Source: an uncultured Nitrosomonadales bacterium
GTDB taxonomy: Bacteria > Pseudomonadota > Gammaproteobacteria > Burkholderiales > Methylophilaceae
NCBI GenBank assembly: GCA_913048465.1
Contig: CAJWVO010000008.1
Span: 1 to 64,000 of the forward strand
Length of the DNA stretch: 64,000 nt
Direction of reading: 5' to 3'
Below are positions 6,222-25,592 of the stretch, one piece after another. The translations under genes were made by a program, and so were the position numbers. Every line of letters starts with the position of its first letter. The stretch's first letter is position 1. The notes beneath the pieces are model-generated. The model was not told the DNA's origin, made no database searches, and saw only the letters and a program-made list of their open reading frames with translations.

Positions 6222-7100
6222 TTACAACAGAGCTGCTCCATAAACTCCAGCAGAGTCCCCAAGCTTATTCATGACAATTGGTGTCTTGAAAGATTCAGAA
6301 AATACATACTTTTGAATTTCCTCAATACCGTCGTTATAAAGATTTGCCAAATTAGACAACCCACCGCCTAAGACAATAATATCTGGGTCAATGCTATTAA
6401 CGATATTGGCAACAGCCCTTCCAAAATTATTCATAAACCCATCAAAAATTTGCATTTCAAGCCCATTCTTATTTTTATTGTTCAGAAACTCTTTAGCAGA
6501 ATAATTAATTCCATAATTTTTTAACTGTGTTTCTATCCCGCCACCTGATATGTAGGTTTCTACACACCCTCTTTTGCCGCAATAGCATTCATTACCATCA
6601 GGATAAAGAACGGAGTGGCCCCATTCACCTGAAATTAAATTTGGACCCAAGCGTAATTGATTGTTAAACACAAAACCACCTCCGCAACCCGTCCCCATAA
6701 TAATTCCAAATACCAGCTCATGATCTTTGCCAGCACCCAGGGTTGCTTCAGCTAGAGCGAAACAATTTGCATCATTTTCGATATTGACATTGTGATTAAG
6801 TTTTTCTTCAATCATTGTAAGCAAGGCAGTGCCATTTAGGCATGTGGTATTCGAATTCCTTAGTAGATTTGTGTCAGGCGCAATGGAACCGGGAGTGCAA
6901 ATTCCGACTGAAAAGTCATCTGATTCAAACACATTTAGTGCTTGGTTATAAATTTTTGATATTTGGCTAATGATATGATCAGGACCCTTTTCGGCTTCAG
7001 TTGGAATTCGATCTCTAAATATTGGTAATTGATCCTCTAATACAATCGTTTCAATTTTTGTACCACCAAGATCAATCCCGATATTAAATTTTTCTTCCAT
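6222..7100 (-). CDS. ROK-family sugar kinase
   Basis: A 292-residue cytosolic kinase. The N-terminal phosphate loop NIGIDLGGTKIE, the central GTGCGGGFV, and the ROK zinc motif with its conserved His (WGH) followed by CYCGKRGCVETYISG are all intact. ROK kinases of this length phosphorylate glucose, fructose or N-acetyl-hexosamines; I cannot choose the substrate from sequence. There is no DNA-binding N-terminus, so it is not a NagC/XylR-type repressor. It is first in a minus-strand run that continues into the MAPEG gene 49 bases downstream. Confidence 0.88.
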   Translation of the reverse strand: MEEKFNIGIDLGGTKIETIVLEDQLPIFRDRIPTEAEKGPDHIISQISKIYNQALNVFESDDFSVGICTPGSIAPDTNLLRNSNTTCLNGTALLTMIEEKLNHNVNIENDANCFALAEATLGAGKDHELVFGIIMGTGCGGGFVFNNQLRLGPNLISGEWGHSVLYPDGNECYCGKRGCVETYISGGGIETQLKNYGINYSAKEFLNNKNKNGLEMQIFDGFMNNFGRAVANIVNSIDPDIIVLGGGLSNLANLYNDGIEEIQKYVFSESFKTPIVMNKLGDSAGVYGAALL

Positions 7101-7155
7101 CGAAAAAATATATTTTTAAATTAAAGTTTGGTCAAGTTTTTGTTAGTATTGTTTT

Positions 7156-7338
7156 ATGGATTATATTTATCAATTAATAGCTGTAATCTTTTTTTTCTTT
7201 ATTTTTAAACATTCATGGGATGGCTACAAAGAATATAAAGTTGCCAATGATGAGAGAAAATCTGAAATTAAAAGAATGTGGCTACTCTTTTTAGTTATCG
7301 CAATTATTTTTATCTATATCTTTTTTAGTGATAGATAA
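7156..7338 (+). CDS. Small two-helix membrane protein, unknown
   Basis: A 60-residue protein with a hydrophobic segment at about 4-20, a charged middle (KEYKVANDERKSEIKR) and a second hydrophobic segment at about 42-57. I do not recognise a family. The layout of two helices joined by a charged loop, and the clean position between the ROK gene and the next small membrane gene on the same strand, favour a real gene. No strong ribosome site is visible. Confidence 0.5.
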   Translation: MDYIYQLIAVIFFFFIFKHSWDGYKEYKVANDERKSEIKRMWLLFLVIAIIFIYIFFSDR

Positions 7339-7369
7339 TCAATTTCTTTCTTTATAAAATTTAACTTGA

Positions 7370-7588
7370 ATGGATCATATGATGATTAAGTGGATAAGTA
7401 CGGCACTTGTTTTAACAGGAATTCTTCTAACCAATTTAAATATTTATCCTCTAAATATTTATTTTCATGGTTTAGGAGTAATTGGATGGACGATAGTGGG
7501 TTTTCTTTTCAGAGATAAAGCAATTCTTGTCAATTTTGGTTTGCAAATCCCTTTATTTGTACTTGGTTTTTTTAAAACAATAATTTAG
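7370..7588 (+). CDS. Small membrane protein, unknown
   Basis: A 72-residue, mostly hydrophobic protein with a KWISTALVLTGILLTNLNIYP head, a GxIGWT turn and a conserved-looking FRDKA/VNF segment before the last helix. It resembles short uncharacterised membrane proteins found in marine bacteria and cyanobacteria, but I cannot name a family with certainty. It begins 31 bases after the preceding small membrane gene, so they may form a two-gene unit. A downstream ATG at 7379 is an alternative start. Confidence 0.5.
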   Translation: MDHMMIKWISTALVLTGILLTNLNIYPLNIYFHGLGVIGWTIVGFLFRDKAILVNFGLQIPLFVLGFFKTII

Positions 7589-7633
7589 ATAATTATTTTA
7601 TATTCAAGAGAGATTAATAGACTAAAAAAAGAG

Positions 7634-7709
7634 TGGTGGCCAGAGACAGAATCGAACTGTCGACACGAGGATTTTCAGTCCACTGCTCTACCAACTGAGC
7701 TATCTGGCC
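7634..7709 (-). tRNA. tRNA-Phe (anticodon GAA)
   Basis: A 76-base cloverleaf on the minus strand with acceptor GGCCAGA/TCTGGCC, anticodon loop CTGAAAA giving GAA, a GTTCGATTC T-loop, discriminator A and an encoded CCA. It stands alone between the small membrane genes and the btuM gene. Confidence 0.97.
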
Positions 7710-7751
7710 AATTTTGAACGTGAAATTATATCAAATAATGATAATGAAAGG

Positions 7752-8312
7752 CTAACTTCTTTGTATGAATTTTAAGAAATAGTTTCTGAGATCAAGTTGA
7801 TATAAAGAATAGACAATGGATCCGTATACTAGGTTAGGTATCAAATAAGCAGGGAAATAATTCCAACCATACTGAATTGATGTGAAGAATGAAGGATTTC
7901 CAAATCTATCGGAGAACATGTAGTAAGTATTTGTTGAGATGATAAAAGCAAATGTTGTGCTGACAAAAACTATCACAAAAAATGTGTTGAATTTAATATC
8001 GTAATTTTTAATTAACTTACCAGCGAAAAACATTACAAGGTATGTTGGAATCAGCCCCCAATAACCATCCGTTAAACAAAATGCCAAGCTGTTATCAAAA
8101 AAACCAGAACCAAAATCAATAACTGCGGTGAGAATAAAAAATACACAAAAAAGTAAGATAGAGGGTATGAATAGACCTAAATATAAAAAGATAATTAAAC
8201 TAGCATCAGGAATTGAAAACTCAGTTAAAAAATGACTACCTCTTGTGAGAAACATCAAAAAGATTAAGAAACTCACCAAAAGTAGATTATTTTTACTAAA
8301 TACTTGCATCAT
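7752..8312 (-). CDS. btuM: BtuM-type solitary cobalamin transporter
   Basis: A 186-residue inner-membrane protein with about six helices. Its RGSHFL...IPDASLIIF segment and AFCLTDGYW segment match what I recall of the BtuM family, ECF S-component-like vitamin B12 importers that work without an ECF module. Cys79 falls at the position of the cysteine (Cys80 in the Thiobacillus protein) reported to bind and decyanate cobalamin. Context is strong: its ATG overlaps the btuB stop (ATGA) and both lie under a cobalamin riboswitch. No btuCDF genes are near, which agrees with a solitary importer. Confidence 0.85.
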   Translation of the reverse strand: MMQVFSKNNLLLVSFLIFLMFLTRGSHFLTEFSIPDASLIIFLYLGLFIPSILLFCVFFILTAVIDFGSGFFDNSLAFCLTDGYWGLIPTYLVMFFAGKLIKNYDIKFNTFFVIVFVSTTFAFIISTNTYYMFSDRFGNPSFFTSIQYGWNYFPAYLIPNLVYGSIVYSLYQLDLRNYFLKFIQRS

Positions 8313-10285
8313 ATTTCAACTTCCATTCCGATAAACCATGTTCTTCTAAAATTAAACGGGTATATTGCACCATAGGTATCATCTGTATATGTTCTTATAC
8401 CATTTTTTTGATTAAAAATATTATTAATTGAAGCAAAAATACTCATTGACGAAAATTGAGAAATGTTTTTCAAGCTATATTTAACGAATGCATTGGTTGA
8501 CTCATAAGATGGGGACATCATATTGGCATTATTGTTAAAATCATCAAAAATATAATTCCTATCTCGCCATACATGATTAACTGAAGCGTTCCAATTATCA
8601 TAATCATAGTGGATTGCTAAATTAATTGAGTTTTTTGGCACACCTGGTAATGATTTTCCACTTGGGAATGTTGTGCTGTCTGTATCATTTAAAATTTTAG
8701 CAATCGTATAGCTGTAGTTAAATTTAAGATTAAATCTATCATTAAGTTTGCGCATTAAAAAAACTTCATAACCATATTTATTAGTGCGGTCGATATTCTC
8801 ATTCTGATAACTCGTTGGGTTAAAAACAATTTCATTATCAAGATCAGCATAAAATGTACTAATTTTTAATTTTTGTTTCGGATCAATATAATTTAAGCCC
8901 AAATTAATTGTCCTACTTTGCATCGGTTTAATATTTGGATTTAAGGTATCGTAGTTCCCAGTTCCAAAGTTATAAGGAAGCATGCGGTCAATATCTTGTG
9001 ATTGCATGCTTTTGGAAAAATTAGAAAATAAGTTAACTTGATTATTCAAAATATAATTTAACCCAGTTTCAAACATGGATAGACGGTCAGACTGATCAGT
9101 GTTAATACTAGTGTTATTGAATTTGGTGATTACTCTTTCTGTTCTTGCCCCATAAGTAATGGACAATTTATCATCATCATCAAGAGAATGTTTTGCTTGT
9201 AGGTAGATTGCCTCATTTTGTTTGTTGGCCTGGTTGACTGGAGTTTGTGAGTTGCGATATGCGTTTAATTCTCTTTCGCTGATAGACATTCCGGATGTTA
9301 AATTAAAACCTTTACCAGAGTAATCAAGCTCAAGTCCATTAACAATTGCGCTTGTTTTTCTTAAGTTAGTCGCGTAATCCCTGGCATCATATTTCTTTCT
9401 TTGCCCCTGGTGATAGACTTTAACAGAAAAGTTATCTGAAAAATGAGTTATGTAATCTAATCCCCAGATATCGTCGTTGTAATCGAACTCGTTATACTGT
9501 CCTCCACTACGAGACGGGTCTTTATTAAACTGAAGCCTGGTCAGGGCTGCTGGAAAAAGAGAGTTAGATTCCGTATTGGAGTATTTGAAATTAATCTGAG
9601 AATAATTATCCAGTTCATAGCTTAACTTAATAGTTTGGTTGCTCGACTTACTCTTATCTTTGTTGCCTCTTGAATCTTTTTGACTATAACCGTCATTACT
9701 CTCGTAACTTGATGAAAAAGAAATAGAAAAATTGTCAATTATCTTTCCTGTGGTAAACGAGTGATTCTTTTGACCAAAATTACCGTATGCAGATGAGATC
9801 CTTGTTTTGTCATGATTTTTGGTATAGATATTTATTGACCCTGCGTTGGACCCGTCTCCATGAACAACAGATCCGCTGCCTTTTAAAATTTCAATTCGAT
9901 CGATATCTTTAGTATTAATAGTTCCTAAAAAACCTGGTGCCATATCAATATTATTGATCCGATACCCATCCACATTGACAACAATATTTTGAAATCCATT
10001 TTCTAGTCCATAGCCTCTCATATCAATGGATGGCGCAGCTTTGTTCCCAGAGTAGGATGAAACATTGAGTGAGGATTTATTTGATAAAAAATCAAAGAGG
10101 TTATTGGTCCCAGAATTTATTATTTCTTCGTGATCATAGACCTCAACATGATGAGTGGAGTTACTTTCTGAGGTATAGAATTTATTCGAATAAACAATCA
10201 CTTCATCAGTATTAAGTTCCTCTGAATAAATTAATGAAGAATAAAAGCTGAAAATAGCAATTAAAAAATTCTTAAAGTTACGCAT
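8309..10285 (-). CDS. btuB: TonB-dependent cobalamin receptor BtuB
   Basis: Outer-membrane beta-barrel receptor of about 658 residues that imports vitamin B12 using TonB energy. It has a signal peptide (MRNFKNFLIAIFSFYSSLIYS), a TonB-box-like DEVIVYSN, a plug domain with DRIEILKGSGSVVHGDGSNAGSI variants, and a barrel ending in an aromatic C-terminus (TWFIGMEVEI). I chose the ATG at 10285 because a GGGAGGG ribosome site lies five bases upstream and the signal peptide starts there; an upstream start at 10321 is unlikely. Regulation by the upstream cobalamin riboswitch identifies the substrate. btuM is coupled downstream. Confidence 0.93.
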   Translation of the reverse strand: MRNFKNFLIAIFSFYSSLIYSEELNTDEVIVYSNKFYTSESNSTHHVEVYDHEEIINSGTNNLFDFLSNKSSLNVSSYSGNKAAPSIDMRGYGLENGFQNIVVNVDGYRINNIDMAPGFLGTINTKDIDRIEILKGSGSVVHGDGSNAGSINIYTKNHDKTRISSAYGNFGQKNHSFTTGKIIDNFSISFSSSYESNDGYSQKDSRGNKDKSKSSNQTIKLSYELDNYSQINFKYSNTESNSLFPAALTRLQFNKDPSRSGGQYNEFDYNDDIWGLDYITHFSDNFSVKVYHQGQRKKYDARDYATNLRKTSAIVNGLELDYSGKGFNLTSGMSISERELNAYRNSQTPVNQANKQNEAIYLQAKHSLDDDDKLSITYGARTERVITKFNNTSINTDQSDRLSMFETGLNYILNNQVNLFSNFSKSMQSQDIDRMLPYNFGTGNYDTLNPNIKPMQSRTINLGLNYIDPKQKLKISTFYADLDNEIVFNPTSYQNENIDRTNKYGYEVFLMRKLNDRFNLKFNYSYTIAKILNDTDSTTFPSGKSLPGVPKNSINLAIHYDYDNWNASVNHVWRDRNYIFDDFNNNANMMSPSYESTNAFVKYSLKNISQFSSMSIFASINNIFNQKNGIRTYTDDTYGAIYPFNFRRTWFIGMEVEI

Positions 10286-10286
10286 A

Positions 10287-10334
10287 AAGCCCTCCCAGAC
10301 TGAATCATGAAGATTAAGCACCGATAGGAGGCTT
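10287..10334 (-). promoter_or_regulatory. Ribosome-site-sequestering hairpin of the btuB leader
   Basis: On the minus strand AAGCCTCC (10334-10327) can pair with the btuB ribosome site GGGAGGGCTT (10296-10287), leaving one bulged G. This gives a plausible translational off-switch directly downstream of the cobalamin aptamer. The pairing is seen in the sequence; the switching is inferred. Confidence 0.6.
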
Positions 10335-10354
10335 AATACTCACCCGTATAAAAA

Positions 10355-10512
10355 TAAAGATTGGCCGGTATCCGGACTCAAGAGACAAAATATAACGTCT
10401 TCCCAAGAAAAATCTCAGTGACATGTTGTTATATCCACACTCTATTACCGTTGCGGGGGCAGTATTGGTTTTTCACCAATTTCCCGATTATGCCTAAATT
10501 TAGGCCACCAAC
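10355..10512 (-). promoter_or_regulatory. Cobalamin (AdoCbl) riboswitch
   Basis: Read on the minus strand, the leader contains the classic cobalamin aptamer: GGTGAAAAACC followed by CTGCCCCCGCAACGGTAA (10462-10445) and the B12-box-like GAGTCCGGATACCGGCC (10379-10363). Order and spacing match the family consensus. It precedes btuB and btuM and should repress them when cobalamin is plentiful. Confidence 0.96.
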
Positions 10513-10515
10513 AAC

Positions 10516-10543
10516 TTGACTATAGCATATGAATAACTATAAT
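10516..10543 (+). promoter_or_regulatory. Sigma-70 promoter before the Cys/His-rich protein
   Basis: TTGACT (10516-10521) and a perfect TATAAT (10538-10543) are separated by 16 bases. A start near 10550 would coincide with the second in-frame ATG of the next gene. Confidence 0.65.
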
Positions 10544-10870
10544 CACACAATGGTTTTAAGAAAGATTGCATTTTTTGCATTAATTACCATTGTATTTATG
10601 CAATGGACAACTCTACAACATGACGTCGATCATATGCATGAGGTCTTTTATGTCGCTCATTGTGAAGATGAAAAAAAAGAGGACAGCAAGGAACTTAACC
10701 ATTGTGAAAATTGTAGTATTTTTAATCATCTTGCCCACGCTATTTCAAATGATGATCACACTTTATTGAATAAACAATTAAATTCAACTTTAAATAATAG
10801 CTACAGAATATTTGCTTTTACGCATTTCTATAGCATCAATTCCGTTAGGGGCCCACCACAAATCTCTTAA
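10529..10870 (+). CDS. Small exported Cys/His-rich protein, putative metal handling
   Basis: Up to 113 residues with a hydrophobic N-terminal segment (about 10-27, RKIAFFALITIVFMQWTT) that looks like a signal or anchor. It is followed by a His/Cys-rich region (DHMHE, AHCED, NHCENC, HLAHA) able to bind a transition metal. No named family is recognised with certainty; small proteins of this kind often precede zinc or copper uptake genes. The TATAAT at 10538 lies inside the first codons, so the real start may be the ATG at 10550 (106 residues). The ZnuD-like receptor follows by 32 bases on the same strand, suggesting an operon. Confidence 0.7.
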   Translation: MNNYNHTMVLRKIAFFALITIVFMQWTTLQHDVDHMHEVFYVAHCEDEKKEDSKELNHCENCSIFNHLAHAISNDDHTLLNKQLNSTLNNSYRIFAFTHFYSINSVRGPPQIS

Positions 10871-10902
10871 AAAATAATTTTTAATTTTTTTGGAGAAAAC
10901 AA

Positions 10903-12999
10903 ATGCAACACAAATACAAGCTTTTAAGCTTAGGCGTGCTTTTAGCCCTAAACGCCATAACTTATGCGGATGAGCAATTAGATTTGCCAGTTACCCCAGT
11001 AACCGCTAATCCTTTGGGAGTTAGCTCAGATGAATTCGTCATCCCTTTCTCAGTCTTAAATGGGCGGAGTTTAGACGTCAGGAGGGGAAATAACCTTGCT
11101 GATACCCTAGAAGATACCCCAGGAATTTCCTTTTCTAACTGGGGACCTATGGTCGGAAGACCAATCATCCGAGGTATGGACGGTGACCGAATCCGTATCA
11201 TGAGAAATGGTATTAATTCTATTGACGTATCATCATTTAGTACAGATCACGCAGTCCCTATTGACCCTATGGTTATTGAACAAATAGATGTTATTCGAGG
11301 TCCTGCAACTGTCCTTTATGGGGGGGGAACCATCGGTGGGGTAATAAACGCGATAGACCATCGAATCCCAAGACAAAAAATTTCTGGTGCGACCGGTCGA
11401 GCAATAACTCGATTTGGAGGAGCTAACAGCGAACGAAGCTCTGCGGTAGTTGGAGATATTGGTATTGGAAATTTGGTTATTCACCTCGACGCCTATACCA
11501 GAAAAACAGGTAATCTCAACATATCAGGCTATTCAGTATCCAGCAGATTAGCTCGCTCTGATTCAGAGGTTAGTCGAAATTCATATGGTAAAAAAGGCCA
11601 ATTGAGAAATTCGGGTTCCGATTCTGATGGCGGTGCGCTAGGTGCATCATACTTCTTTGATAAGGGTTATATCGGTATGTCGTATGCGAAGCATGATAGT
11701 GAAATTGGGAATCCACTTACAACCACAGGTTTTTTTGATCAGGAAACTAGTCGTTGGGACCTGCATTCTGAGTTTCATGATATTGATATTTTTGATTTTT
11801 TTAACCATTTTAAGTTTAAGATGGCCCACACCGACTATAAGCATGACGAACACCATGAGCCTGGTGAAATTGAGGCAACATTTGAAAATCGCGGTCTGGA
11901 TGGAACTTTGGAATTAGGTCATCATGCTATCGCTGGCATAAGTGGTGTGGTCGGATTTCACTTTGATAACTCAACCTTCAAGCAACCCAATGGAGTTCTG
12001 TTACCAACTGCTAATACTGATTCACAATCTGTATATATTTATGAAGAGCTTCCAATCGATGAACATAAACTTACATTGGGATTGAGAAGGGGAAATCACG
12101 ATGTTAAAAGAAATGCTTTTACAGGTGATGGAGGTTGTAGTATTTCTTATACTGATTCTGATGATTGTGATGCCTCCGGTGGTGCTGAGGATGATCAGTC
12201 TTTCGGTGAAACAGAAAAAACATTTCAGACCAACAATGCTGCTATCGGAGGTGTTTATAAGATTAACCAAAATTGGTCTTTAAATTCCAATTTGGCACAT
12301 TCTGAAAGAGCGCCAGCATTTTTCGAGTTATTCCCTTATGGTGCTCACCATGCGACTGAGCAAGTCCACAAAGGAAATGAAAATCTTAACACCGAGCTAT
12401 CCAATTCGATAGACTTTAAAGTTAATTGGAAAAATAATGGACACTATTTCAATGTTGGTCCTTACTACACGAAATTTAATCGTTTCATAGGATTATTTAA
12501 CACGGGTAACGAGCTCTATCACCTTCATGAGGGAGAGGAAGAGGCTGAAGCAATGAGTGTATTTCAGTATCGTTCGGTTGGAGCAACATTTAAAGGGTTA
12601 GAGTTTGATGGAAACTATCAAATTAATGACCAGTTTAATTTTTCTTACAAGGGTGACTATGTTCGCGCCGAACAGGATAACGGAGATGATTTACCAAGGA
12701 TTTCTCCACTCCGATTGGGCGCGGGTGTTTCCTATGAAAAAAATCGATGGTATGCAAGGTTGGATATCTTAAGAGCATTTGCTCAAGACAATATTGCTGC
12801 CCATGAATTAAAAACTGATGGGTACACTAATGTGACAGCTTATGCGGCATATCAGTTTCCGATTGAATATAATCTGCAGTTCTTTGTGAAAGGCCATAAT
12901 TTGCTTGATCAAGAAATACGTGATCATGCTTCTTTTATGAAGGATAAGTTTTTAAGGCCAGGCCGGTCAGTTCTATTCGGATTGAGAGGAGAATTTTAG
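10903..12999 (+). CDS. znuD: ZnuD-like TonB-dependent receptor (probable zinc uptake)
   Basis: A 698-residue outer-membrane receptor. It has a signal peptide (1-22), an N-terminal plug with IIRGMDGDRIRIMRNG and IEQIDVIRGPATVLYGGG, and a 22-strand-type barrel ending in FGLRGEF. Extracellular-loop regions are His/Glu/Asp-rich (DEHHEPGE; HHATEQVH; HLHEGEEEAEA), and the ERAPAFFELFPYGAHHAT segment is like ZnuD receptors for zinc. The adjacent Cys/His-rich protein supports metal transport. No Zur box was recognised and copper or another metal is possible. The 3' end overlaps dgkA by four bases. Confidence 0.8.
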   Translation: MQHKYKLLSLGVLLALNAITYADEQLDLPVTPVTANPLGVSSDEFVIPFSVLNGRSLDVRRGNNLADTLEDTPGISFSNWGPMVGRPIIRGMDGDRIRIMRNGINSIDVSSFSTDHAVPIDPMVIEQIDVIRGPATVLYGGGTIGGVINAIDHRIPRQKISGATGRAITRFGGANSERSSAVVGDIGIGNLVIHLDAYTRKTGNLNISGYSVSSRLARSDSEVSRNSYGKKGQLRNSGSDSDGGALGASYFFDKGYIGMSYAKHDSEIGNPLTTTGFFDQETSRWDLHSEFHDIDIFDFFNHFKFKMAHTDYKHDEHHEPGEIEATFENRGLDGTLELGHHAIAGISGVVGFHFDNSTFKQPNGVLLPTANTDSQSVYIYEELPIDEHKLTLGLRRGNHDVKRNAFTGDGGCSISYTDSDDCDASGGAEDDQSFGETEKTFQTNNAAIGGVYKINQNWSLNSNLAHSERAPAFFELFPYGAHHATEQVHKGNENLNTELSNSIDFKVNWKNNGHYFNVGPYYTKFNRFIGLFNTGNELYHLHEGEEEAEAMSVFQYRSVGATFKGLEFDGNYQINDQFNFSYKGDYVRAEQDNGDDLPRISPLRLGAGVSYEKNRWYARLDILRAFAQDNIAAHELKTDGYTNVTAYAAYQFPIEYNLQFFVKGHNLLDQEIRDHASFMKDKFLRPGRSVLFGLRGEF

Positions 13000-22024: not shown

Positions 22025-23167
22025 ATGAATGATTATTTTTTTACCTCTGAATCGGTTTCAGAGGGTCATCCTGATAAGGTTGCTGATCAAATTTCAGATG
22101 CCATTTTAGATGCTATTTTAGAACAAGATCCACTGGCTCGTGTGGCTGCCGAGACTTTGACAAATACTGGGCTAGTGCTGTTAGCTGGTGAAATAACTAC
22201 CAAGGCGCGCGTTGATTATATAAAGGTTGCTAGGGAAGTCATTAAAGATATTGGATATGATCATCCTGAAAAAGGAATTGATTATAACGGCTGCTCTGTT
22301 CTGGTTGCCTATGATGAACAGTCACCGGATATTGCTCAAGGGGTAGATCAAGCAAATGATGATCCCTTAGATCAAGGAGCTGGAGATCAGGGGTTGATGT
22401 TCGGTTATGCTTGTGATGAAACGGCATCTTTGATGCCACTGCCAATTTGGTTATCACATCAACTAGTCAAAAAGCAGTCAGAGATGAGAAAGTCTGGAAA
22501 GCTATCGTGGTTAAGACCAGATGCAAAATCGCAGGTGACCTTAAAATATCAGAATAATACCCCCGTGGCGATAGATACAATTGTGTTATCAACGCAACAC
22601 GATCCTGATGTCTCTCAAAAAGATATTCATGAAGCTGTTACTGAAGAGATCATCAAGCCAACACTTCCTGGTGATATTGATACAACTGCTACTAAATTTT
22701 TAATCAACCCAACTGGAAAATTTGTCATTGGTGGACCTCAAGGAGATTGCGGTCTGACAGGTAGAAAGATTATTGTGGATACTTATGGAGGCGCAGCTCC
22801 ACATGGTGGTGGGGCCTTCTCAGGCAAAGATCCTTCAAAAGTTGACCGCTCTGCTGCATATGCTGCACGATACGTTGCAAAAAATATCGTAGCTAATGGT
22901 CTTGCATCCAGATGTCTAGTCCAGTTATCCTATGCGATTGGGGTTGCCCAGCCTACTTCGATTATGGTTGATACCTTTGGAACAGGAAAGGTTTCTAATG
23001 AGGAGATGGTTAAAATAATAAGAGAGAATTTTGATTTAAGGCCTAAAGGTATTGTTCAGATGTTAGACCTGTTGAGGCCCATTTATAGAAAAACTGCAGC
23101 TTATGGCCATTTTGGCCGTGATGAAGACTCTTTTTCTTGGGAAAAAACGGATAAAAAATTAACATAA
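22025..23167 (+). CDS. metK: S-adenosylmethionine synthase MetK
   Basis: A 380-residue cytosolic enzyme making SAM from methionine and ATP. The [17 protein letters not shown] head, [12 protein letters not shown] and [16 protein letters not shown] signatures are intact. It is followed by an SAH riboswitch, ahcY and metF, giving a compact methyl-cycle block. No SAM riboswitch is evident in its 70-base upstream region. Confidence 0.99.
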
Positions 23168-23175
23168 ACAACAAC

Positions 23176-23204
23176 TTAACTTTTTAAAAAATTTCAAGTA
23201 TAAT
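23176..23204 (+). promoter_or_regulatory. Sigma-70 promoter of ahcY
   Basis: TTAACT (23176-23181), a 17-base spacer and TATAAT (23199-23204). The expected start near 23211 coincides with the first base of the SAH aptamer. Confidence 0.7.
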
Positions 23205-23210
23205 CTTACC

Positions 23211-23312
23211 TGTCGAGGAACGTTGCGAGATTCTTTCCCAGGCTCGACAATCTAAACTGCGTTCACCTAACCTTGCCAGTCAAGGCTTCAGGTGAAGAAG
23301 CCAGCTGGTCAC
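23211..23312 (+). promoter_or_regulatory. S-adenosylhomocysteine (SAH) riboswitch
   Basis: The leader shows the SAH aptamer: GTCGAGGAACGTTGCGA, CCCAGGCTCGAC closing the first stem, a second hairpin AACCTTGCCAGTCAAGG, and TTCACCT/AGGTGAA pairing, ending with GCCAGCTGGTCAC. It lies 31 bases before the ahcY start. SAH riboswitches switch expression on when SAH accumulates, matching the SAH-degrading enzyme encoded next. Confidence 0.93.
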
Positions 23313-23342
23313 TTATTAATTTTAAATTTAAAGGATAAATTT

Positions 23343-24761
23343 ATGAATAACGTGACAGAATCTAACATTCAATTGGATCATGTTGTTGCAGATATCAATC
23401 TTGCTGAATTTGGTCGCAAGGAAATATCAATTGCTGAAAAAGAAATGCCTGGACTTATGGCCATCCGTGAAGAATATAAATCATCCCAGCCTCTAAAGGG
23501 TGCTTTAATCACTGGCTCATTACACATGACGATTCAAACCGCAGTTTTGATTGAAACATTAGAGGCGCTAGGAGCTAGAGTTCGATGGGCTTCCTGCAAT
23601 ATTTTTTCAACTCAAGACCATGCTGCAGCAGCCATTGCAAAAAATGGCACTCCTGTGTTTGCTTTTAAAGGGGAAAGTTTAGATGACTATTGGGACTTCA
23701 CACATCGAATTTTTGAATGGCCAAATGGTGAATATTCAAATATGATTCTGGATGATGGTGGAGATGCTACTTTATTACTGCATTTAGGAGTGAAGGCACA
23801 ACAAGATCAATCTGTTCTAGATAATCCTCATAGTGAAGAAGAGACGGCACTATTTAAGGCGATCAAAAATAAACTTGCTGAACATCCAACTTGGTACAGT
23901 GACAGAATTAAACATATAAAGGGAGTTACTGAAGAAACGACTACTGGTGTGCATAGACTTTATCAAATGCATAAGGATGGCGAGCTTGCTTTTCCAGCAA
24001 TCAATGTCAATGACGCTGTGACCAAATCTAAATTTGATAATTTATATGGTTGTCGTGAGTCTTTGGTGGATGCTATAAAAAGGGCAACCGACGTTATGAT
24101 CGCTGGTAAAGTTGCAGTTGTTGCAGGTTATGGTGATGTTGGTAAAGGATCTGCACAAGCATTAAGAGCGTTATCGGCTCAGGTTTGGGTAACTGAAGTT
24201 GATCCGATTTGTGCATTGCAGGCGGCTATGGAAGGTTATCGAGTCGTTACAATGGACTATGCAGCTGAGCACGCTGATATTTTTGTGACCGCGACTGGAA
24301 ATTATAATGTGATCAATCATGATCATATGTTACGTATGAAAGATGAGGCGATTGTTTGCAATATTGGCCATTTTGATAATGAGATTGATGTTGCTAGCAT
24401 AGAACAATACACTTGGGAAGAAATTAAGCCACAAGTGGACCATGTTATTTTCCCAAACGGTAAAAAAATAATTTTATTAGCTAAAGGAAGATTGGTTAAT
24501 TTAGGTTGTGCAACCGGACATCCTAGTTATGTAATGAGTTCTTCTTTTGCCAATCAGACTATTGCGCAAATTGAGTTATTTAAAAATACTCAAGACTATC
24601 CAGTTAATGTGTATACGCTTCCTAAGCATTTAGATGAGAAAGTTGCTGTGCTGCAATTAAAAACTCTAAATGTTCAACTGAGCAAGTTAACTGAGGAGCA
24701 GGCAAAATATATTGGGGTTAATGTAGACGGGCCTTTCAAACCAGACCATTACAGGTACTAA
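23343..24761 (+). CDS. ahcY: S-adenosylhomocysteine hydrolase AhcY
   Basis: A 472-residue NAD-dependent cytosolic enzyme that cleaves SAH to homocysteine and adenosine, removing the inhibitor made by methyltransferases. Signatures are [16 protein letters not shown], the NAD-binding [17 protein letters not shown] and the C-terminal PDHYRY. I chose ATG 23343, which has AAAGGA upstream; an in-frame start at 23292 lies inside the riboswitch and is rejected. metF starts on the base after its stop. Confidence 0.98.
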
Positions 24762-25592
24762 ATGAAAGCAAGCTCATTTAGTTTTGAATTTTTTCCTCCT
24801 CGAACTCAAGAGGGGGAGGAAAAATTAAAGAGAACATTAAAGGACTTGTCAGAATTTAATCCTGAGTTTTTTTCCGTTACATTTGGTGCTGGTGGCTCGA
24901 CTAAAGATAAGACAATTGGTATTGTTCAATCCATCAAAAATGATGGTTACAATGCGGTTCCACATATCTCATGCATCACTTCAACGAAAGATGAAGTGTT
25001 AGACCTCATTACAAGTTATAAAAATAAAGGTATCAATCGTTTGGTGGCCTTGAGAGGAGATAACCCATCGGGTATTGCTGGGTATGGGGATTTCCATCAC
25101 GCTAGTGATTTAGTTGAATTTATTAGAACTAATACTGGCGACTATTTTCATCTGGACGTTGCAGCCTATCCTGAATTTCATCCAGAATCAGCAAGTTCTA
25201 TTGATGACTTGAAAAATTTTAAGACTAAGGTTGATGCCGGTGCTAATTCAGCTATTACTCAATTCTTTTTTAACGTGGACTCGTACTTTAAGTTCATTGA
25301 AGAGTGTGAACAGTTAAATATCAGTATTCCTATCGTTCCTGGAATTATGCCTATTTATAACATCAAGCAACTGTCAAGATTTGCTCAAACTTGTGGGGCT
25401 GAGATTCCCAGATGGCTTAAATATAAATTAGAATCCTATGGGGATGATATTGAGTCGCTACGTGAATTTGGTATCGATTTCATTTCTGAATTATGTGAGA
25501 CCCTTCAACAGTTTGGCGTAGAGTCATTTCACTTCTATACACTCAATGAGTGCGGGATTGTTTCGAAAGTATTAAAAAATATTTCTGATTAA
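24762..25592 (+). CDS. metF: 5,10-methylenetetrahydrofolate reductase MetF
   Basis: A 276-residue FAD enzyme that reduces methylene-THF to methyl-THF, the methyl donor for homocysteine methylation. Family motifs FEFFPPRTQEG, SVTFGAGGSTKD, ALRGD and the FFFNVDSYFKF segment are visible. Its ATG directly abuts the ahcY stop with no gap, so translation is probably coupled and both obey the SAH riboswitch. Confidence 0.97.
   Translation: MKASSFSFEFFPPRTQEGEEKLKRTLKDLSEFNPEFFSVTFGAGGSTKDKTIGIVQSIKNDGYNAVPHISCITSTKDEVLDLITSYKNKGINRLVALRGDNPSGIAGYGDFHHASDLVEFIRTNTGDYFHLDVAAYPEFHPESASSIDDLKNFKTKVDAGANSAITQFFFNVDSYFKFIEECEQLNISIPIVPGIMPIYNIKQLSRFAQTCGAEIPRWLKYKLESYGDDIESLREFGIDFISELCETLQQFGVESFHFYTLNECGIVSKVLKNISD

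Follow-up and report, generated by a model that had tools for sequence, protein, structure and literature searches.

A likely minimal, self-regulated vitamin B12 import operon with BtuM in an OM43-clade member of the Methylophilaceae

Organization of the riboswitch-receptor-btuM locus

The stretch of DNA analyzed here (the window) comprises positions 1 to 64,000 of contig CAJWVO010000008.1 (GCA_913048465.1), which belongs to a 1.2 Mb genome in 46 contigs, 88.36% complete and assigned to the OM43-clade Methylophilaceae (G000). On its minus strand a cobalamin riboswitch is followed by the gene for a TonB-dependent receptor and then by btuM, which encodes a predicted S-component-like B12 importer of 186 residues. 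The riboswitch aptamer (RF00174), the leader of the receptor/btuM operon, lies at 10346-10527 (-) and matches the full model, positions 1-189, with 112.6 bits (E 2e-27), the gathering score being 31.5; the search of this 88%-complete genome turned up no other RF00174 match. The receptor open reading frame (ORF) spans 8309-10321 (-), with a likely start at the ATG at 10285 that gives a BtuB-like outer-membrane protein of 658 residues (8309-10285). Both its TonB plug (PF07715, E 1.6e-15) and its beta-barrel (PF00593, E 2.3e-36) score above the Pfam cut-offs, and a PDB sequence search with the receptor returned no match up to E 0.001. The btuM gene occupies 7752-8312 (-), its ATG overlapping the TGA of the receptor gene as ATGA. 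The original prediction, made from the sequence alone, had proposed this riboswitch-receptor-btuM unit and its ATGA coupling, and both are confirmed, the riboswitch by its covariance model, the receptor by plug and barrel and BtuM by sequence and fold; only the end given for the riboswitch, at 10512, needs correction, as the RF00174 match runs 15 bases farther.

The locus was compared across six small genomes, namely G000 and five relatives (G000-G005, with loci L002-L006), and 11 larger relatives (L007-L017). By BtuM identity the closest named relatives are LSUCC0717 (94%), KB13 (87%) and LSUCC0665 (87%), titled Methylophilaceae or beta proteobacterium; KB13 is named as an OM43 strain in a passage of PMC9004378. 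The 4-base overlap recurs identically in four related loci (L002, L003, L004 and L006, the ATG in L003 being an in-frame one within a longer ORF) and RF00174 was found in all 16 related loci, so chance is a poor explanation of the unit. In 12 of the 16, the riboswitch is on the btuM strand, upstream of a receptor-sized ORF and btuM, while it is on the opposite strand in three Methylobacillus loci (L008, L009 and L011) and in L005. As read from these sequences, the locus is old in the family.

Between the aptamer and the receptor gene lies a putative expression platform (10283-10345, -). There the sequence GGGAGGG (10290-10296), just 5' of the ATG at 10285, can pair with an upstream GCCUCC in a predicted stem of -21.9 kcal/mol that would sequester the ribosome site. 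As a terminator scan found none, a transcriptional switch is unsupported, and the leader is suggestive of translational control of the receptor gene by the riboswitch as the better guess. A single cobalamin riboswitch upstream of btuB has already been reported for OM43 strain H5P1 (PMC9004378); that locus is like the one described here in this respect but differs in that btuM is not mentioned in the passages compared.

Identity, fold and key residues of BtuM

When BtuM was searched against PDB sequences, one distinct sequence was retrieved (E 6e-17), the "Cobalamin ABC transporter" of 8c7p and 8ovv, which are titled tagless BtuM with cyano- and hydroxocobalamin. A profile of 17 BtuM rows, the window's own included, reached E 1.1e-27 in the same comparison, for which PDB sequences were used because scans of this BtuM with Pfam and NCBIfam models gave nothing at E 1 or better. 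The entry 6FFV, which we take to be the first for BtuM, gave no separate match in these searches. An AlphaFold2 model of the protein (mean predicted local distance difference test score, pLDDT, 80.0) found tagless BtuM 8ovv in Foldseek (E 4.9e-05, TM 0.78). Aligned to the solved BtuM, the model gives Z 19.6 with a root-mean-square deviation of 2.7 over 170 residues; the next-best structures are S-components of energy-coupling factor (ECF) transporters, with Z 12.0 and below, and the predicted model has the six-helix S-component-like fold of the BtuM family. By sequence and predicted fold, then, the 186-residue membrane protein is BtuM, and the anticipated resemblance to that family has withstood the profile comparison.

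The best comparison is the BtuM of Thiobacillus denitrificans (Rempel et al. 2018, PMC6072759; 8c7p, 8ovv), from which the residue numbers of the studied protein are taken. The two share a fold and are similar in length, with about 25% identity across the structural alignment. H28, D67, Cys80 and Y85 of the studied protein correspond in the sequence alignment to H27, D66, C79 and Y84 here, all four invariant in 17 of 17 aligned rows; the H, D and Y are pocket residues. Cys79 lies in the motif AFCLTDGYW, as had been claimed, and aligns with the axial ligand Cys80. According to passages of PMC6072759, T. denitrificans BtuM restores B12-dependent growth of Escherichia coli lacking btuF, btuC and metE, the axial cysteine is called invariably conserved with C80S abolishing growth rescue, and BtuM occurs, one exception aside, in organisms without an ECF module. 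The description of BtuM as rare does not apply to this order, in which 69 of 399 sampled genomes carry it.

Apparent demand for B12 and its proposed retention in the cell

No match to MetE (PF01717) was found in the six small genomes; the family is present in eight of all 17. G000 has one match to the B12-binding domain, in a frame identified by NCBIfam as MetH (TIGR02082, 1273.6 bits on 973 residues). The best such match lies in a frame of 1250-1251 residues in G001-G003 and G005; for G004, whose record is fragmentary, the frame has only 359 residues. A second match occurs in both G002 and G004. NrdJ, the adenosylcobalamin-dependent class II ribonucleotide reductase, is matched in G000 with 580 bits against a cut-off of 399.95. 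The NrdJ model has a single match in each of the six small genomes, while a further match with a lower score, of the kind that another reductase class should give, occurs in 8 of the 11 other genomes; in this search with the NrdJ model no class I reductase match was seen in the six. According to a passage of PMC6794327, the cobalamin pathway is missing from pelagic Methylophilaceae, OM43 among them. Given NrdJ without a class I match, no MetE match, MetH in G000 and the pathway reported lacking, imported B12 looks, from these gene matches, essential for both methionine and DNA building blocks.

Elsewhere in the window, at 22025-25592 (+), methionine-cycle genes surround an S-adenosylhomocysteine (SAH) riboswitch at 23209-23271 (39.3 bits against a gathering score of 37), with what is presumably a metK-like gene before it and presumably ahcY-like and metF-like genes after it. 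These genes would form the methionine cycle, for which MetH, supplied with imported B12, would provide the closing step. In another locus (L113, 658-3489, -) NrdJ is split into a catalytic part of 719 residues and a part of 220 residues with C-terminal cysteines, the latter matching PRK08665 positions 584-759 with 51.9 bits, below the cut-off.

In passages of PMC6072759 the btuM gene of T. denitrificans and of most other hosts adjoins btuR. Here BtuR (PF02572) has no match in the six small genomes and is present in 3 of 17, while a PduO-type adenosyltransferase is matched in all 17. BtuR therefore does not fit as the trap of imported B12, and the PduO-type enzyme is likely the metabolic trap in its place.

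BtuM relatives without the axial cysteine

The 69 BtuM-bearing genomes hold 76 BtuM places, 75 of which were counted for the cysteine column, the window's copy (L048) included and one place with only the C-terminal part (L163) set aside. Cysteine occupies the axial column in 69 and another residue in 6, so the axial cysteine may not define the family. Two of the six belong to the window's family, with His (L055, G407:C1:84481-84987) and Pro (L056, G238:C1:77619-78146); the others, three with Tyr and one with Thr (L159-L162), are from another family. G407 and G238, each a single contig of 1.3 Mb, belong to one genus, of which G268 and G171 have kept the cysteine; in the second family it is retained by G335. 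On a tree of 75 rows (L163 and L048 left out) two changes of the cysteine label are required, each of them imposed by starred branches, so that on this tree the residue was lost twice; the tree carries long-branch and unusual-composition warnings for some rows, the window and L056 among them.

Around the His and Pro forms (L167 and L168), riboswitch, receptor-like ORF and btuM stand in order, syntenic with the window, and the unit is adjoined, as in the window, by what we take to be phoU-, rpiA- and ilvA-like genes. Both forms keep H27, D66 and Y84. Between the two btuM genes nonsynonymous divergence (dN) is 0.17 and synonymous divergence (dS) 0.49, which argues against decay, although their ratio of 0.35 is still above the 0.11-0.19 of the cysteine pairs compared. 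The Thr form (L174) has a riboswitch and a receptor-like ORF adjoining, with btuM on the opposite strand. For the three Tyr forms there is no RF00174 match within the 16-kb stretches read, and these may have changed function. A literature search for BtuM found no paper on cysteine-less forms among the listings and passages covered; it did not cover a 2024 paper on BtuM decyanation that is cited in a passage of PMC12713380.

The axial cysteine, and decyanation with it, could be dispensable for natural B12 import by BtuM, a tentative proposal to which we give somewhat less than even odds. In base-off B12 enzymes the axial ligand is usually histidine. If the proposal is true, the cysteine would be one way of handling a particular corrinoid form, and BtuM proteins with another ligand or none would import other forms or bind by other chemistry. 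The natural cysteine-less variants make the role of the cysteine directly testable.

Some genomes have two btuM copies. These are tandem neighbors in G319 (L166, 3297-4576), and in G132 (L165, 3616-4185 and 6695-7429) each is downstream of a receptor-like ORF; in both genomes an ORF next to one of the copies is presumably cobO/BtuR-like. Among the receptors of the genus with the His and Pro forms (L167-L170), that of G238 (L168) differs over its first 70 residues from the mutually similar receptors of G407, G268 and G171, as if swapped.

Neighboring genes

Divergent from the riboswitch operon, at 10529-12999 (+), the window encodes a small His- and Cys-bearing protein with a weak DUF2946 match below the cut-off and then a ZnuD-like TonB receptor (282 bits against a cut-off of 950); a promoter-like site (11/12) lies at 10516-10543. 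ORF pairs like this one are found in L002-L004 and L006. In L005, from a BACL14-like metagenome-assembled genome, the riboswitch is at 8803-8997 and the receptor following it, at 6813-8665 (-) on the strand opposite btuM, is broken into several frames, which is either an assembly error or a pseudogene.

Discussion

The riboswitch, receptor and btuM together are, with a probability of about 87%, a minimal, self-regulated operon for B12 import, and the receptor and BtuM look like the main, perhaps the only, B12 route of the bacterium. We infer its regulation, transport, energetics and trapping to proceed as follows. When adenosylcobalamin is scarce, the riboswitch would keep the receptor gene's ribosome site accessible, and the BtuB-like receptor, energized by TonB, would draw cobalamin across the outer membrane. 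At the inner membrane BtuM, acting alone, would then bind cobalamin base-off via Cys79 and move it into the cell, probably by facilitated diffusion with toppling like that of S-components. Trapping would be by use, the PduO-type adenosyltransferase making adenosylcobalamin for NrdJ and for the riboswitch, and MetH taking cobalamin for methionine synthesis.

Several observations weigh against this reading. The receptor scores 64.4 bits with the NCBI equivalog model for B12 receptors (TIGR01779), far below its cut-off of 599.7; for that reason it is called BtuB-like by context, and it is best described as a TonB-dependent receptor whose ligand would be B12. Two riboswitch-following receptors of relatives also fall below this cut-off (64.1 bits in L006 and 113.1 bits in L007). 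R153 of T. denitrificans BtuM is replaced by a tyrosine, Y148, here. In the leader, the proposed site-sequestering stem outdoes shuffled sequences by a modest margin (z -1.61; 15 of 200 equal or beat it), and with the leader folded as a whole there is no such advantage (z -0.89). All absences in G000 are provisional given 88% completeness and 46 contigs, and that of the BtuC-type permease is further weakened by a test in a single genome: FecCD has no match in G000, the only genome tested, with the control positive in 13 of 14. Finally, G000 has one weak CbiQ match (G000:C6:5744-6175), with 18.7 bits against a curated cut-off of 25.

Other importers and other substrates have to be weighed with these points in mind. 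The BtuCDF ATP-binding cassette (ABC) importer would do the same task as partner of BtuB, and G000, unlike a genome with that system, has no FecCD or Peripla_BP_2 match. The BtuF-type family Peripla_BP_2 is without a match in any of the six small genomes and present in 8 of 17, and CbiQ/EcfT has no match above the cut-off in G000. The predicted absence of BtuCDF thus stands for the BtuC- and BtuF-type components, and an ECF module may be lacking as well, the one CbiQ match of 18.7 bits being below the cut-off, the ATPases BtuD and EcfA not having been searched for; no complete BtuCDF or ECF transporter was found in the 88%-complete genome, which supports the proposed interpretation. A conventional B12 ABC importer might still lie in the unassembled part of the genome, with BtuM as an auxiliary, and a passage of PMC6794327 has putative cobalamin transporters, not named, annotated in all isolates of the family. 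Since the five relatives likewise lack Peripla_BP_2, and the records of two, LSUCC0717 and LSUCC0665, are titled complete genomes, such a hidden importer is very unlikely. It is also improbable, if less so, that the main natural substrate of the receptor and BtuM is not intact cobalamin but another cobamide or a precursor, cobinamide for example. The studied BtuM does bind cobinamide with sub-micromolar affinity according to PMC6072759 in part, and the loci of the larger Methylophilaceae, which resemble the window in riboswitch and btuM, differ from it in that btuM adjoins one or more BluB-, BtuF- or CobU-like ORFs in 11 of 11 cases; L008, where these ORFs were scanned, has BluB, a Peripla_BP_2 protein and CobU there, and in the ten others they were recognized by their first residues. 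However, no such ORFs were seen beside btuM in the stretches listed for the window or L002-L006, and a precursor could hardly be finished in OM43, as the cobalamin pathway is reported lacking there (PMC6794327, in part).

The weak CbiQ match raises a further alternative, in which BtuM would not be solitary but part of a reduced ECF-type complex. It marks an orphan EcfT/CbiQ-like membrane protein of 198 residues (L018 1336-1932, -, on G000:C6) encoded between a FimV-domain gene (fimV) and a truA-like gene, which we take to be truA. CbiQ matches exceed the Pfam cut-off in 5 of the 17 BtuM genomes. Among 399 genomes of the order, 69 have BtuM and 134 the EcfT-like protein (9 of these matches being weak, E above 1e-9); 42 have both, an excess over chance in the raw counts (odds ratio 4.0, p 5e-07, not corrected for kinship). 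Against such a partnership, 92 genomes have the EcfT-like protein alone and 27 have BtuM alone, 4 of the latter in the window's own family. Moreover, all nine CbiQ matches end at or before position 154 of the 216 in the profile, and no ATPase gene stands beside the gene in the ORFs of the 3.4-kb stretches; of the nine EcfT-like loci (L018 and L030-L037), L036, of different context, was left out of the alignment. E. coli, in which the studied BtuM is functional, is itself devoid of an ECF module (PMC6072759, in part). As 27 of 69 BtuM hosts do without it, the EcfT-like protein is rejected as a required partner, with a possible role as helper remaining, and a reduced ECF-type complex is the least likely of the alternatives, slightly behind a hidden ABC importer.

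Import by the receptor and BtuM under riboswitch control therefore remains the preferred reading. Much of it has precedent: BtuM is already known, and passages of PMC9004378 place a riboswitch ahead of btuB in OM43. The unit consists of ordinary parts in an informative genome. This analysis adds the apparent double need for B12, with a PduO-type enzyme as candidate trap, and the BtuM relatives in which the cysteine was lost twice on the tree.

OM43 bacteria are abundant coastal methylotrophs and, lacking the B12 pathway, depend on B12 made by others. Should B12 enter by no route other than the receptor and BtuM, a single RNA switch and two small genes would decide the supply of both methionine and deoxynucleotides, and the locus would show how streamlining concentrates dependence on one importer. 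With the cysteine-less relatives as ready-made variants, one can ask how a single small membrane protein transports, without ATP, a vitamin larger than 1 kDa, and whether decyanation takes part. The locus is most valuable as a test bed, pairing a minimal B12 supply line under double demand with naturally occurring variants that cast doubt on what the cysteine is needed for.

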